Origin: Jannaschia pohangensis
Lineage (GTDB): Bacteria; Pseudomonadota; Alphaproteobacteria; Rhodobacterales; Rhodobacteraceae
Assembly: GCF_900113875.1 (NCBI RefSeq)
Contig: NZ_FORA01000001.1
Location: forward strand, 682,001 to 746,000
Length of the DNA stretch: 64,000 bases
Direction: 5' to 3'
Made by a program: the position numbers and the translations under genes. Below are positions 117 to 6,376 of the stretch, one piece after another; position 1 is the first letter of the stretch, and each line of letters starts with the position of its first letter. The notes under the pieces are model-generated. The model was not told the origin of the DNA. It saw only the letters and a program-made list of their open reading frames with translations, and did not search any database.

Positions 117-307
117 GCATCCGCCGGTCGCCCGGCGTGTGCGGTGTCTATGGCGCGCCCCCCGTCCCGTCAAGCGGGGAGAGCCGTGTTTTTTAGCCAT
201 CCGCCCCCGGCCTATTCGTGCACCTGTCCCAAACCCGGGTCCGGCCCACATCGCTTGCCCATCGTCCCCGCCCCGCTACAGTGCCCCATCTGGGAGAGGG
301 AGCGAAA

Positions 308-1057
308 ATGGAAAACATCGCATTGGTCACCGGCGCAGCCCGGGGCATCGGCTTGGCCACCACCAAACTGTTTCTGGCCGAAGGCCGCCGCGTCATCATG
401 GTGGACAACGATACCGAGGAACTGGCCCATGCGGCCACCGACCTGACCGGTGCCATTCCCCTGCCCTGCGATGTCAGCGACCCGGACGCGGTCGCGCAAC
501 TGGCGGCACGCGCCAAGGCAGAGATCGGCAACGTCTCTGCCGTCGTCAACAACGCGGGACTGGCCGACTTCGGCCCGATCGAGACGACCGATTTCGAAAG
601 ATGGCGCCAGGTCATGGCCACCAACCTGGACGGCGTATTCCTTATATCGCAGGCCTTTACATCCTCCCTGAAGGCGACTCGCGGCGCCATCGTGAACATC
701 GCATCCATCAGCGCCCTGCGCGCCTCGACGCTGCGCGTGGCCTACGGCACTTCCAAAGCCGGGGTTGCCCATCTGACCCAACAACAGGCGGTCGAACTGG
801 GGGAGCACGGCATACGGGTGAATTGCGTTTGCCCCGGCCCGGTGCGCACGAAATTGGCGATGGCAGTCCATACGCAGCAAATCATCGATGCCTACCACGA
901 TGCGATTCCGCTCAACCGGTATGGTCAGGAGACCGAGATTGCCGAGGCGATCGTCTGGCTCTGTTCCGACAAGGCCAGCTTTGTCACTGGTCAACGCCTG
1001 GCCGTGGACGGCGGGTTCGAGGCGACGGGAATCGGTCTTCCGGCGTTGCGAAGCTAA
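308..1057 (+). CDS. SDR family NAD(P)-dependent oxidoreductase
   Basis: A 249-residue classical short-chain dehydrogenase/reductase that would oxidise or reduce a hydroxyl/carbonyl substrate with NAD(P)H in the cytoplasm. The cofactor motif TGAARGIG is at residues 8-15, NNAG at 81-84, and the catalytic tetrad fits N106, S133, Y146 and K150 (YGTSK). The acidic residue after beta-2 (VDND, about residue 33) suggests preference for NAD(H). The ATG at 308 is chosen because GGGAGAGGGAGCG precedes it and the protein then begins right at beta-1; a longer in-frame start exists at 218. It stands alone between tRNA-Asp and the convergent ammonium transporter gene, so context does not give the substrate. 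Confidence 0.9.
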   Translation: MENIALVTGAARGIGLATTKLFLAEGRRVIMVDNDTEELAHAATDLTGAIPLPCDVSDPDAVAQLAARAKAEIGNVSAVVNNAGLADFGPIETTDFERWRQVMATNLDGVFLISQAFTSSLKATRGAIVNIASISALRASTLRVAYGTSKAGVAHLTQQQAVELGEHGIRVNCVCPGPVRTKLAMAVHTQQIIDAYHDAIPLNRYGQETEIAEAIVWLCSDKASFVTGQRLAVDGGFEATGIGLPALRS

Positions 1058-1151
1058 GCCGCGACCCAGCGGCTTTATCGCAGCGGCAGACAGGCATGCC
1101 GATCACCGGGCCGAACCCATCTATTGGCTCGATGGGTCAGGCTTGAGCCGA

Positions 1152-4007
1152 TCAGGCCGCCTTGCGGGGCACCGAATGGTCTCCGGTGAAGGTCTCCAGA
1201 TAGTCGAGGGTCTTGCCGACTTCGGTGTTGAGCTGTTCGGACAGTTTCGACGTCTTGCTGGCAAGCGCGAGGTTGTCCTCCGCACTCCTGGAGACTTCGT
1301 CAGCGCGCGCGCGCATGTCGACGACCTGCTTTTGCTGCAGCGCCCCGACCTCGCAGAGCCGTTCGACGCAGGACGAACTTTCGGCCATCGCTTCCGTAAT
1401 GCTGGCCAGGGACTGATTGGCTTCGGACACCAGTTTCACTCCCTGAGACACCGCGTTCTGCACGCCATCCGTCCGGATCCGGATCTCGCCCGCGGCCTCG
1501 GCCGTGCGGGTCGCGAGGTTTCGGACTTCCTGGGCCACAACCTGAAATCCCTTGGCAGAATCCTGTCCGGAACCGCCACCGTTTCCGCCACGGATCGCCT
1601 CGATCGAGGCGTTGATGCTGATCATCGTCGTCTGGTTCGATATCTCCTCGATCAGGGCGACGGCCTCGGAAATGGCGGACATGGCGGCATCGATCTCGGT
1701 CATGTGTTCCCGCGTCCGGGTCGTCAGGTCCCGACCATGGCCCGCGCGTTGTGCCGCCGTCTTGCACAGGGCGTCGGCGGTCATCGCGGTCGACAGCGTC
1801 TCGCCGTTGGCGCGGGTCAGGTCTTCCATGAGGTTGCGGTTCTCCTCCAGCGAGGCGCGCTGGAGCTGTGACTTCTGGCGAATATCCTCGTTGCTCTCGG
1901 CGATTTTCGTGCTGGTCTGAAACACGGCGTCAGCGGTGCCCTTGATCTGGCTCATCAAGTTCGAGATGCCGCCCGCCATGTCCGAAACGGCGTCGCCAAT
2001 CTCGGCATAACGACCGGAGTAGTCGCCCGACATCTGTGCCGTCAGATCGCCGCTTCCAACAGCCCGCAGGGTTTCGAACAACTCGGTCAGGCCGCGCTCC
2101 GATATCTCGCACAGGGCGTTGATATCACCACACAGATCCGCAAAGGCGCCCTGCTTGCCGTCCATGCTGACGGTTGTGCTGAAATTGCCGTGGGCTGCGG
2201 AACTTACCGTGGACTGCACCTGCTCGAGGACAAGGCCGAAGGTGTCGAGCGTCGCATTGATCGACTCCTGGATTTCGGCCAGTGATCCCTCGAATTTGCC
2301 TTCGATACGTTGTGAAAGATCGCCGCGTGACACGGCCGCGAGGCTGAGCCCGATGGCCTGCAACGTCTGCTCGGTCGCGTCGCAGATGTCATTGATCCCT
2401 GAAGATATCTCCAAAAGGAAGTCTTTCTTGCCCTCGGTCGACAGCCGTTTGCTGTAGTCGCCCTTGGCACAGGCCTTCATCACATCGGACACCTCGGCCT
2501 CGACGGCCATGCGCTTGGCTTTCTCGGTCAGGTACTTCTGCTGTTCGGCGGCGTGTTCGCCATCGATGTTGTCCATGATCTTGTTGAAGAGGACGCTCAT
2601 CTCATAGGCCTCGTCCCCGTAGTCCATCTCGAGCCGCTTTTTCGCGCCTGTCATGTCCCGGGCCACCTCGGCCATGATCGTCTGCAGGATCCCCGTTCCC
2701 ATGGGCGTATCGTGCTCGCTTACGTTGAGGCCGTCCGTCTCCTCCTTGGCGGTGACGCGAAGACCACCGCCATGGGGCCCGAGCACAAAGAAGCGATCGG
2801 CAGCCTTGAGGATGATGTATCCGGTACCGAAGGACCAAGCGAAGACGAGGACGATGCCCTGAAGCTGCACGAAAGCCTGGCTCAACCGACTGCCGGTCAC
2901 CAGCGCCTCTTCGGGACCGAACAGGGCGACGGCCAGCGTTCCGAACATGCCCGCGAAGCCGTGGACCGGAATCGCGCCCAGGGGATCGTCGATCTTCAGG
3001 ATATCTTCCAGAAGGATGGTCGCAAAATGCACGACGACACCGGCGAGCACTCCGATGAAGAAGGCAGCCTGGGGCGTCATGATGTCGGCCCCCGCGGTGA
3101 TCGCCACAAGGCCGCCCAACGTGCCGTTGATCGACGACACGGGGCGAAACACGCCCATCCCGATGCGACCGATGATCATCAAGGAAAGACCGCCGCCCGC
3201 ACCCGCCACAACGGTGTTCGCCACGACCTGAGCGAATTCCGTGGTGCCCGTCAGGACAGAGCCGCCATTGAAGCCGATCCACCCGACCCAGAGGATGACG
3301 ACGCCACATGTGGACAGGACCGGCGAATGGCCATGCAGCACGCGAGCCTTGCCGTTCTCGTCGTACTTGCCGATTCGGGGCCCGAGGATGACGACGGCGG
3401 CAAGGGCGACCCAAGCACCGACAGAATGCACGACCGTGGAGCCAGCGAAATCCATGAAACCGAGGGATTTCAGGAACGGCTCATTGTCTGTGTTGAGCAG
3501 ATCGCCCCAGGCCCAATGGCCCGCGACCGGATAGATCAGCAGGGCAATCGCGACGGTCGAGATGAGGTAGCCGTTGATCGCCATCCGCTCGGCAACGGCG
3601 CCCGACACGATGGTGGCAGCGGTGCCGCAGAACATCATCTGGAAGACGAAAAAGGTCACGTCCCAGCCTTCGAAGGCCCCGAAGAACAGCATATCGGGCT
3701 GCCACCCCCAGATGCCGTTCCCGCTGATCCCGAACATGAGCATGTAGCCGAAGGCCCCGAACAGGCAGACCGACACGATGAAATCCATCAGGTTCTTCTG
3801 GGCCACGTTCACGGAATTCTTCGACCGGACTTCCCCGGCTTCGAGCAGCAGGAACCCGGCCTGCATCAGGAAGACGAGCGCCGCCGCGGTGATCGTCCAG
3901 ACATGATCGAGGTCGGTCTGAAGGGCGAGACGGTCGGCCGGGCCTTGGGCAAAGGCCACCGCGGGAAAAATCGCCGACCCCATTGCGAGCGCAACCGTTC
4001 TGATCAT
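1152..4007 (-). CDS. Ammonium transporter (Amt) fused to poly-HAMP and methyl-accepting chemotaxis signalling domain
   Basis: About 951 residues in one uninterrupted frame. A signal peptide (cut near AFAQ) precedes an Amt/Rh channel to about residue 420. The conserved Asp of MDFAGSTVVH and the twin pore histidines (one in STVVH, one in IPVHGF) are present, so the channel looks competent. The usual Amt tail motif (NVSEH) follows. Then, instead of ending, the protein continues with about four HAMP-like repeats (cores GDYSKRL, GDLSQRIEG, GNFSTTV, GDLTAQMSG; about residues 480-700) and a long coiled coil with a chemoreceptor hairpin (EEISNQTTMISINASIEA, then KGFQVVAQEVRNLATRT). It is probably an ammonium sensor that signals through a CheA-like partner (inference). 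The inner ATG at 4007 is chosen because GGAGG lies 8 nt upstream. No che genes are nearby. The hairpin tip has an unusual glycine-rich insertion. Confidence 0.9.
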   Translation of the reverse strand: MIRTVALAMGSAIFPAVAFAQGPADRLALQTDLDHVWTITAAALVFLMQAGFLLLEAGEVRSKNSVNVAQKNLMDFIVSVCLFGAFGYMLMFGISGNGIWGWQPDMLFFGAFEGWDVTFFVFQMMFCGTAATIVSGAVAERMAINGYLISTVAIALLIYPVAGHWAWGDLLNTDNEPFLKSLGFMDFAGSTVVHSVGAWVALAAVVILGPRIGKYDENGKARVLHGHSPVLSTCGVVILWVGWIGFNGGSVLTGTTEFAQVVANTVVAGAGGGLSLMIIGRIGMGVFRPVSSINGTLGGLVAITAGADIMTPQAAFFIGVLAGVVVHFATILLEDILKIDDPLGAIPVHGFAGMFGTLAVALFGPEEALVTGSRLSQAFVQLQGIVLVFAWSFGTGYIILKAADRFFVLGPHGGGLRVTAKEETDGLNVSEHDTPMGTGILQTIMAEVARDMTGAKKRLEMDYGDEAYEMSVLFNKIMDNIDGEHAAEQQKYLTEKAKRMAVEAEVSDVMKACAKGDYSKRLSTEGKKDFLLEISSGINDICDATEQTLQAIGLSLAAVSRGDLSQRIEGKFEGSLAEIQESINATLDTFGLVLEQVQSTVSSAAHGNFSTTVSMDGKQGAFADLCGDINALCEISERGLTELFETLRAVGSGDLTAQMSGDYSGRYAEIGDAVSDMAGGISNLMSQIKGTADAVFQTSTKIAESNEDIRQKSQLQRASLEENRNLMEDLTRANGETLSTAMTADALCKTAAQRAGHGRDLTTRTREHMTEIDAAMSAISEAVALIEEISNQTTMISINASIEAIRGGNGGGSGQDSAKGFQVVAQEVRNLATRTAEAAGEIRIRTDGVQNAVSQGVKLVSEANQSLASITEAMAESSSCVERLCEVGALQQKQVVDMRARADEVSRSAEDNLALASKTSKLSEQLNTEVGKTLDYLETFTGDHSVPRKAA

Positions 4008-4125
4008 CTGCCTGGCCTCCACCATCGCTGTGATGTGGGGCCTAAGGCAAAGGTCTTGCCAAACATTTAACCGGCGCGCGCGTCACGCCATAGCCCGGCG
4101 CTTTTCGTCATGTCAGGGGTTTGGC

Positions 4126-4201
4126 TGGTGGGTGGTGAGGGGCTCGAACCCCCGACATCCTCGGTGTAAACGAGACGCTCTACCAACTGAGCTAACCACC
4201 C
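4126..4201 (-). tRNA. tRNA-Val (TAC)
   Basis: The minus strand gives a complete cloverleaf: acceptor stem GGGTGGT/ACCACCC, D-arm TAGCTCAGTTGGTAGAGC, anticodon loop TTTACAC with anticodon TAC, and T-arm GGTTCGAGCCCC. The 3' CCA is encoded. TAC reads valine GUA. A second valine isoacceptor lies 0.7 kb away. Confidence 0.96.
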
Positions 4202-4236
4202 ACGCGTTGCCCGGATACCGCCTTGGCCGGATGGCA

Positions 4237-4839
4237 TCAAGGGCGTGCGTCGGGCCAATCGGAGAGAATCGGCGTCAAGCGGCGCTCCATGCCCCGGGCC
4301 AAGTGGAACGCGATGCCCTGCCCGCCGACCAGTTGAGATATTGCCGCCCTCGGAAGCCCGAGGACGATCGTCCGCAGCATCCGCGCCGTCATGCCGTGCG
4401 TCACGAGGATCGTCGGTCCGGCAAGATCCGCCAGAAACGACCGGCACCGCTCTTCCAGCGCATCGAACCCCTCGCCACCGGGCGCGGCCCCGTAGAGGTC
4501 GAGCAGGTCGGCATCGGCCGACATACCGGGGCTTTGCCGGATGGTCTCGACCGCGACGCCGGTCCATTCCCCAACCTCGATCTCGCGCAGGCGCGAGTCG
4601 GTGCGGGGCGGCGTCCCGAACGCCAGCTCGGCTGTCGTGCTGGCGCGGGGTTGCGGGCTGCTCAGCAGGGCATGGCCTTTCGGCCCGATCCCCATACGTG
4701 CGAACATCGAACCAAGGGCGAGCGCCTGCGCACGCCCCCGGGCGGTCAGCGCCGAATCGCGTGCCCCCTGCCAGCGGCCCTGCAGATTCCATTCGGTTTC
4801 GCCATGGCGGAACAGGATCAGTTCGGGCAAATCAGCCAA
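4237..4839 (-). CDS. Histidine phosphatase family protein
   Basis: A 200-residue protein of the phosphoglycerate-mutase-like histidine phosphatase superfamily. The signature LFRHGETEWN is at residues 9-18, with the phospho-accepting His at about 12. The second catalytic His is in LVTHGM near residue 149, and an acidic residue suited to proton donation is in LREIEVGEW. Such enzymes remove phosphate from small molecules or proteins in the cytoplasm; the substrate cannot be read from sequence. The gene sits between two valine tRNAs on the same strand and may be cotranscribed with them. No signal peptide or membrane segment is visible. Confidence 0.88.
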   Translation of the reverse strand: MADLPELILFRHGETEWNLQGRWQGARDSALTARGRAQALALGSMFARMGIGPKGHALLSSPQPRASTTAELAFGTPPRTDSRLREIEVGEWTGVAVETIRQSPGMSADADLLDLYGAAPGGEGFDALEERCRSFLADLAGPTILVTHGMTARMLRTIVLGLPRAAISQLVGGQGIAFHLARGMERRLTPILSDWPDARP

Positions 4840-5464: not shown

Positions 5465-6376
5465 ATGGACCTGCAACAGATACTGGACGATATCGCCACC
5501 GAGGTGGCGTCACTCCCCGATCTGGGGCGGGTGGCGACCTATATCCCCGAACTGGCCGATGTGGACCCCGGTCATTTCGGCCTGGCGATCGCGCTCCCTG
5601 ATGGTCGGGTCCTGACCAGTGGCGAAGCCGATGCGCCGTTCTCGATCCAGTCGGTCTCCAAGGTCTTCACGCTCGCCCTGGCCCTTGGCCGTCTGGGCGA
5701 GCTTTTGTGGCACCGGGTCGGTCGAGAGCCATCGGGCCATGCCTTCAACTCGATTCTCCAGCTCGAACAGGAGGCGGGAATCCCCCGTAACCCGTTCATC
5801 AATGCCGGTGCAATCGTCGTGACCGATGCGATTCTGGAGGGTCGCCAGCCCCGCGAGGTTCTGGGGGAATTGCTGCGCTTCATCCGGGGCGCGACCGATG
5901 ACGAGGATATCCGCATCAATGATCGGGTCGCCGCCTCCGAGCAGGCGCATGGTCATCGCAACATGGCCTTGGCGCAGTTCATGGCGGCCCATGGAAACCT
6001 GCGCAATCCGGTCGAGATGACCTGCGGCACCTATTTCCACCAATGCGCCATCGAGATGTCGTGCCGCCAGCTGGCCTGCGCCGGGCGGTTCCTGGTCGGG
6101 GGGCCGGGTATGCCCCGGCTCATCGCGCCGGCACGGGTGCGGCGGATCAATGCGCTGATGATGATGTGCGGCCATTACGACGCATCGGGCGACTTTGCGT
6201 TCAACGTCGGCCTGCCCGCCAAGAGTGGGGTCGGAGGCGGCATCCTGGCCATCGCGCCGGGGCGCGCATCCATTGCCGTCTGGTCCCCGGGGCTGAACGC
6301 CAACGGAAACTCTCTCCGCGGCACCTATGCGATCAAGCGGTTGACCGAGATGACGGGCTGGTCCGTCTTCGGCTAG
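5465..6376 (+). CDS. glsA: Glutaminase
   Basis: A 303-residue serine-dependent glutaminase (glutamine to glutamate plus ammonia). The catalytic SxxK motif is SVSK at residues 63-66. Other family signatures include [16 protein letters not shown] and the C-terminal KSGVGGGI with [10 protein letters not shown]. Length fits the bacterial GlsA family (about 300-310). The ATG at 5465 gives the expected N terminus; a TTG at 5447 would add six residues. It is monocistronic, bounded by terminators on both sides, and cytosolic. Its product ammonia relates functionally to the ammonium transporter-sensor upstream, but the two genes are not in one operon. Confidence 0.95.

Follow-up and report, generated by a model that had tools for sequence, protein, structure and literature searches.

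A probable ammonium chemoreceptor of Jannaschia pohangensis in which an Amt channel domain is fused to poly-HAMP and chemoreceptor signalling domains

The described protein closest to the one analyzed here is Ks-Amt5 of Candidatus Kuenenia stuttgartiensis (6EU6), in which an Amt domain is likewise fused to a cytosolic signalling domain. According to its report (PMC5764959), Ks-Amt5 binds NH4+ without transporting it efficiently, NH4+ modulates its kinase, and the output is a histidine kinase without HAMP. Amt domains are also fused to GGDEF-EAL modules in Rhizobiaceae and others, where the output, judging from the domains, would be cyclic-di-GMP turnover rather than CheA signalling. A further system is Sd-Amt1 of Shewanella denitrificans, a shorter chain (644-661 aa) whose output domain we take to be a diguanylate cyclase. 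Its structures were deposited under differing titles, 8QJ3 and 8QJ4 as a "Receptor" and 8QPF as an "Ammonium Transporter." On the chemoreceptor side, a succession of HAMP units is found in the receptors of the Aer2 type, the sensing part of Aer2 itself being a PAS-haem domain. The 5TMR-MCP fusions (PMC11109136) likewise couple a membrane fold resembling a transporter to an MCP output, the fold being that of an S component and not of an Amt.

In the window, that is, the whole 64,000-nucleotide stretch of J. pohangensis DNA analyzed, we found a gene at 1152..4007 (minus strand) whose open frame and Pfam matches define a 951-aa protein of Amt-HAMP-polyHAMP-MCP build. The initial annotation had proposed a single uninterrupted frame for Amt, HAMP, and MCP parts, and such a frame is indeed present, specifically on the minus strand, where it is unbroken along the whole gene; the plus strand of the same stretch is interrupted by stops. 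A possible ribosome-binding site, GGAGG (4016..4020, minus strand), lies 8 bases before the ATG at 4007, and an alternative in-frame ATG lies at 4025. A scan of 900-4300 for sigma-70 promoters found none, with 0.4 expected by chance. The G+C content of the gene is 0.62 versus 0.66 for the window, and its third-position G+C (0.81) is inside the range of its neighbors (0.76-0.85). Inspection by eye gave a signal-peptide-like N terminus (residues 1-20, 3948..4007, minus strand), and the translation ends in Ala-Ala (1155..1160, minus strand). A single-chain predicted model (mean pLDDT 79.7, pTM 0.54, from an alignment of 31 rows) comprised the Amt fold, five units read as helix-connector-helix, and a hairpin of residues 666-808 and 815-941; it was weak (pLDDT below 50) at 558-563, 569-595, 619-621, 810-814, and 942-951.

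We then searched other genomes for the same architecture. With the own genome included, matches were found in 3 of 60 near genomes (E ≤ 1e-100), 6 of 394 family genomes (at 1e-110), and 4 of 398 phylum genomes, the two large searches scoring two candidates per genome. The ten relatives from other genomes comprised six Amt-MCP, three Amt-PAS-GGDEF-EAL, and one Amt-kinase protein. Among the best 80 of 408 relatives from a wider scan of named genomes, sorted by a domain search, there were 41 Amt-MCP proteins (three of them apparently from genomes of the first ten relatives, namely, L026/L041, L027/L071, and L028/L076), 37 Amt-GGDEF-EAL proteins (6 with PAS), 1 Amt-kinase, and 1 protein cut by a contig end; since these are the best 80 of 408, the shares of the architectures are not unbiased. 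The wider scan selected on the patterns [ST][VI]NVAQKN and [VI]GW[IL]GFNG, so counts at S65, N67, V68, A69, Q70, K71, N72, and F246, which lie within them, are biased, while position 428 is outside both patterns. The carriers among the matches listed include Roseobacter, Thioclava, Rhodovulum, Tritonibacter, Rhodospira, Terasakiella, Azospirillum halopraeferens, Roseibium, Pseudovibrio, and Woodsholea, as well as one Rubrivivax MAG record, and an Amt-MCP (L232) also occurs in a genome of another class (G587). The initial annotation had regarded the Amt-poly-HAMP-MCP chain as less familiar; the architecture it described stands, and the Amt-MCP architecture is recurrent, mostly in Alphaproteobacteria. 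These relatives also bear on the trivial explanation that an assembly or sequencing error had joined separate amt and mcp genes. Because other genomes carry the same Amt-MCP joint in one open frame (6 of the 10 relatives and 41 of the 80 best among the 408), we rejected an artefact, in favor of which nothing was found and which is scarcely credible. Among the papers listed in literature searches that covered few subscription journals, none dealt with an Amt-MCP fusion. An article by Tremblay and Hallenbeck from 2009 may treat additional fusions.

The Amt channel domain (residues 34-434, 2706..3908, minus strand) was delimited by Pfam and by profile and structure matches, with Ammonium_transp PF00909 covering residues 36-434 (E 9.6e-106, 354 bits versus a cut-off of 23.2). 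The residues of transport are kept in the alignment (pore H194 and H349, D186, W167, F126, F246, and S250), which bears out the earlier reading of a complete channel with twin pore histidines and the conserved Asp. Both histidines are present in 43 of 44 MCP-fused rows, the exception being L101. The closest solved sequences were 6EU6 (Ks-Amt5) and 8QJ3/8QPF (Sd-Amt1), before other Amts. The same order was obtained with the fold of the model, for which the top match was 6EU6 (TM 0.95 of target), followed by 8QJ4/8QJ3/8QPF (0.93-0.94 of target). Identity to Ks-Amt5 over the Amt fold was 42%. We scored as inner-site letters the residues Q49, E56, N72, D75, T132, and S135, which align with the ammonium site of Ks-Amt5: Q24, E31, N47, D50, and T109 of that protein correspond to Q49, E56, N72, D75, and T132, while its T51 and T112 are not matched letter for letter and read F76 and S135 here. 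The six letters are invariant in 44/44 MCP-fused, 40/40 GGDEF-EAL-fused, and 2/2 kinase-fused rows, and the full set is absent from the three unfused Amts of the host genome. Of 18 further fused rows, three of which repeat earlier places, two deviate in the site and another one is partial; the 119-row Amt set omits L055, which is truncated at a contig end, and L046, whose Amt part is incomplete. All six letters occur, however, in 6 of 44 unfused Amts as well, so they are a trait of a subfamily, and for this reason we rejected the inner site as proof of sensing. A longer loop 5 was likewise rejected as a mark of a sensor, its length being shared by 19 of 44 unfused Amts. Of the three residues blocking the pore of Ks-Amt5, F27 is matched by F52, while Y30 and F34 are replaced by L55 and E59; this trio is reported for Ks-Amt5 alone and was not treated as a requirement of the family.

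The initial annotation had called the protein a one-protein ammonium transceptor, that is, an Amt part still importing ammonium and an MCP part that reports transport or is set by it. The retention of the twin histidines, the Phe gate, the vestibule Trp, and the Asp, with both histidines in nearly all MCP-fused rows, would agree with such a protein, as would the unfused Amts with identical inner-site letters. Ks-Amt5, however, keeps the same transport residues without efficient translocation of NH4+, according to PMC5764959. Moreover, within the first long helix, all 9 rows of the protein's own group have a polar or charged residue at position 59 (in order, E, T, H, T, Q, Q, S, S, and S), compared with M or L in 39 of the 44 unfused Amts, and the three other Amts of the genome could serve uptake. 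We regard continued import as unlikely, and we keep the sensing half of the transceptor proposal as the more probable one, in view of the analogy with Ks-Amt5 and of the GLN-bearing branch of fused Amts presented below. The two readings overlap, as a transceptor would still be a chemoreceptor.

At the cytosolic end of the channel the protein reads GLNVSEH (residues 426-432, 2712..2732, minus strand), with Asn428 at a position where the aligned unfused Amts have Asp. Asn (GLN) was found at this position in 104/104 fused rows, representing 101 distinct places, as L155, L156, and L157 duplicate rows already counted (L030, L031, and L029). Asp (GLD) was found in 41 of 44 unfused rows, the other three (L130, L137, and L146, the last counted as unfused without a domain scan) being partial alignments with no letter there. 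In a second set, Asn was present in 19/19 fused rows, 5 of which re-read places of the first set, and Asp in 20 of 21 unfused rows, with 1 unaligned. Both 6EU6 and 8QJ3 also read GLN in the sequence alignments. Judged on these alignments, the exit motif appears to be a better discriminator of fused from unfused Amts than the inner-site letters. The motif is followed by a HAMP-like module, u1 (residues 439-500, 2508..2693, minus strand), delimited from the Pfam HAMP matches of relatives, the model, and a u1 HMM. Its similarity to the other HAMPs of the protein is at noise level (z -0.6 to 2.5), and Pfam HAMP falls on its place in 2 of 10 relatives, above the cut-off in L048 and just below it in L059. 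The u1 HMM, built from 45 MCP fusions, nevertheless found 49 of 58 GGDEF-EAL and kinase fusions with GLNxxEH cut off the targets (weakest shown E 1e-4, one motif-less row omitted). A HAMP-like exit module is thus common to the MCP, kinase, and GGDEF-EAL fusions of Amt.

Behind u1 lie two di-HAMPs, residues 501-595 (2223..2507, minus strand) and 596-690 (1938..2222, minus strand), both delimited by Pfam, self-comparison, and the model. HAMP_2 matched in three stretches (E 4.7e-17), HAMP PF00672 scored 24.1 bits, just below its cut-off of 25, and in the self-comparison the pair at about 501-595 recurs as the pair at about 595-690 (z = 18 versus 200 shuffles). Consecutive HAMP domains are supported by Pfam, by the repeat score, and by the model, which is weak in part of the region. 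The about four HAMP-like units proposed initially were thus recovered as two di-HAMP repeats with the MCP hairpin behind them, the HMM search finding both HAMP_2 and MCPsignal in the C-terminal half. The NCBIfam Aer2 model matches residues 595-946, with 169 bits versus a cut-off of 1200, and PDB 3VOL matches 451-590. Whereas Ks-Amt5 has a kinase as its output, the present protein has u1, two di-HAMPs, and an MCP hairpin.

The hairpin, a Tsr-like coiled coil (residues 691-941, 1185..1937, minus strand; Pfam, Tsr alignment, and model), contains the MCPsignal match PF00015 (residues 748-911, E 5.1e-20, 72.4 bits versus a cut-off of 34.6). Against Tsr structures it aligned gap-free over 692-935 apart from 7 extra, glycine-rich residues in the turn (residues 809-819, 1551..1583, minus strand). 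The host MCP L037, whose hairpin is also Tsr-like, aligned to Tsr without gaps throughout, and both hairpins therefore belong to the length class of Tsr, which we take to be 36H. Residues 593-944 are collinear with residues 403-747 of L037 (28% identity with 7 gap positions; E 6e-44, three proteins being compared). The HAMP units and hairpin are collinear with those of the host MCPs L037 and L038, which, unlike the present protein, have no Amt domain and an ordinary tip. At the expected methylation sites, ASLEE on the N arm matches Tsr, and the site region of the C arm differs.

The tip departs from the usual sequence (QTTMISINA in place of QTNLLALNA), and since the turn is also 7 residues longer than that of Tsr, docking on CheA/CheW is not assured. 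Turn lengths vary within the own nine-row group (16, 12, 8, 15, 10, 10, 9, 9, and 9), with a length of 9 in the other Amt-MCP rows (34 of the 36 readable by the tip pattern). These observations would suit a receptor uncoupled from the flagellar array, its altered tip barring CheA/CheW or its output being another one. They are countered by the rest of the hairpin, which is gap-free relative to Tsr, by N799, E803, and R806, which are present here and invariant in the 31 Amt-MCPs of one alignment (L084, outside that alignment, has Asn at the place of the Arg), and by the host genome, in which a CheW-domain search found no second CheA. Uncoupling from the array is, in our opinion, quite improbable. 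The same search had two hits in the genome, a single CheA and a single CheW, which lie within a run of CheY-like, CheA, CheW, CheR, and CheY-like genes about 325 kb from the Amt-MCP gene; the genome also has one flagellin match and seven MCPsignal matches in six proteins. No che gene was found among the six neighboring open reading frames scanned, two of which had no Pfam match, in agreement with the earlier remark that the partner must be sought elsewhere. Among 45 Amt-MCP loci, 44 had no match to the CheA, CheW, CheR, or CheY of the host genome within the flank examined, and one (L052) had a weak CheR- and CheY-like pair nearby.

To explore the history of the fusion, we built a maximum-likelihood tree by a quick method from 91 of the 148 Amt domains, placing the root on four rows without a fusion. 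The tree omits six rows that are partial or duplicates (L155, L156, L157, L177, L067, and L060), 24 of the 40 rows with GGDEF-EAL, and 27 of the 44 without a fusion; L170, L004, L101, and L159 were flagged as long. The 74 fused rows formed one branch (SH-aLRT 98) with the 17 unfused rows outside it, 14 of the 74 being called fused by frame length only (over 600 aa for rows of the phylum search), with their output type unsorted. The comparison with Amt-histidine kinase and Amt-GGDEF sensors drawn in the initial annotation holds, and the GGDEF-EAL proteins share both this branch and the exit module. In the 398 phylum genomes, the own genome excluded, the 18 places nearest this Amt all lay in frames of at least 741 aa and were followed by five unfused Amts. 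On the tree, the protein and L024 fell together into a Rhodobacterales group of nine rows (SH-aLRT 100). The MCP-fused state required two changes on the tree, of which the well supported branches alone force one. The Tsr-like hairpin kind required three changes versus the rest, the kinds being split by which hairpin query scored higher, in some cases by small margins; the MCP half may therefore have been gained or swapped on more than one occasion. Between exit motif and tip, the other hairpin kind has a largely constant spacing (208 residues in 24 of 45 rows and 209 in 4), and the own group has 372-373 residues in five of its rows and 232-282 in the remaining four.

In the window, the gene lies between a short-chain dehydrogenase gene (218..1057, plus strand; ORF scan and locus comparison) and tRNA-Val(tac) (4126..4201, minus strand; tRNA call and locus comparison), the left- and right-hand neighbors of the insertion point, and is the only gene identified in the gap of 3068 bases. 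In species of the same genus, we compared the surroundings of the matching tRNA-Val genes, six stretches in all. In two of them (G010 and G012) the dehydrogenase lies about 98 and about 32 bases from tRNA-Val(tac), with nothing like the Amt-MCP gene between; in the other four, no dehydrogenase of this kind was found. Of the 19 other genus members searched, one (G018) had a match, at 45% identity and in a different part of its genome, and a closer relative (L024, 55% identity) is found in another genus (G067). This pattern fits a patchily distributed, perhaps transferred single gene. Integration mediated by the tRNA gene was considered and rejected, as 1000-1200 and 3900-4260 share no stretch of 9 to 20 bases, and no flanking repeat was found around the gene.

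Taken as a whole, the sequence comparisons make it likely that the protein serves as a chemoreceptor for ammonium, with a former ammonium channel as its sensing part, and that it senses, probably, by binding NH4+. We infer that NH4+ would be the ligand, bound rather than passed, and that the hairpin would dock on CheA/CheW; any direction of the response would be of the same conjectural kind. In such a receptor, external NH4+ would pass the selectivity vestibule and occupy the inner site formed by the six residues scored above, and the Amt trimer would change shape upon occupancy. The cytosolic exit segment (GLNxxEH plus u1) would relay the change to the two di-HAMPs in series, and these would pass the signal to the hairpin, which would control the single CheA/CheW complex and so flagellar motility. 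Amt proteins are trimers and MCPs dimers, and two Amt trimers could supply the six chains of one MCP trimer-of-dimers, purely as a geometrical suggestion. A bolder composite can be imagined, in which Amt and the exit module form a portable ammonium-sensing cassette, the Asp-to-Asn exchange (GLD to GLN) marks and may even cause the conversion of channel to receptor by uncoupling the C-terminal gate, and two Amt trimers feed three MCP dimers so that the channel itself builds the trimer-of-dimers of the array; as a joint proposition we hold it to be doubtful.

Ammonium is a central nutrient, and in the literature searched we found no paper describing a bacterial chemoreceptor for ammonium with this architecture. 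One sensory channel with three types of output would make it possible to test directly how a transporter fold that is trimeric can drive dimeric signalling proteins. The difference between GLN and GLD, if it holds true in wider sets, would provide annotation with a simple marker distinguishing likely sensors from transporters.

The receptor gene stands as a single-gene insertion (window 1058-4125) with a dehydrogenase gene on one side and tRNA-Val(tac) on the other, and the same site was found without the insert in 2 of the 6 same-genus stretches read (G010 and G012). At a distance of 1.4 kb from the receptor gene is a gene for glutaminase, an ammonia-releasing enzyme (window 5465-6376). A glutaminase gene was also found near lon in four of the six same-genus stretches, three of which belong to genomes without an Amt-MCP match; its proximity to the receptor gene is therefore probably due to chance.

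In 28 of 45 Amt-MCPs (loci L044-L119), the distance from the exit motif directly behind the channel to the tip of the hairpin was 208 or 209 residues, a spacing that looks as if measured. In the Amt-MCP of a Rickettsiales MAG (L101:624-3080), a long-branch row of odd letter composition, the two pore histidines and the Ser of the vestibule have been lost, with S, N, and L in their places; the protein may be a receptor whose pore is dead. Azospirillum halopraeferens carries two Amt-MCP copies (L059 and L060), one on each of two contigs, equal in match range, identity, and length.

The receptor itself ends in Ala-Ala (window 1155-1160). Such an ending was seen in 13 of the 14 Amt-MCPs whose hairpin scored nearer the Tsr-like query and in none of the remaining 31, namely, 30 nearer the long type plus L063, which is truncated and whose hairpin was unscored. 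Across all long open reading frames, the Amt-MCPs included, this ending was present in 30 of 561. The Jannaschia pohangensis genome has three ordinary MCPs, and two likewise end in Ala-Ala; it also encodes two short, atypical MCP-like proteins, on contig 15 (L035:8300-9031) and contig 6 (L036:7255-8658). Since McpA of Caulobacter is a ClpXP substrate (PMC8973945), the terminal Ala-Ala may be a degradation tag.
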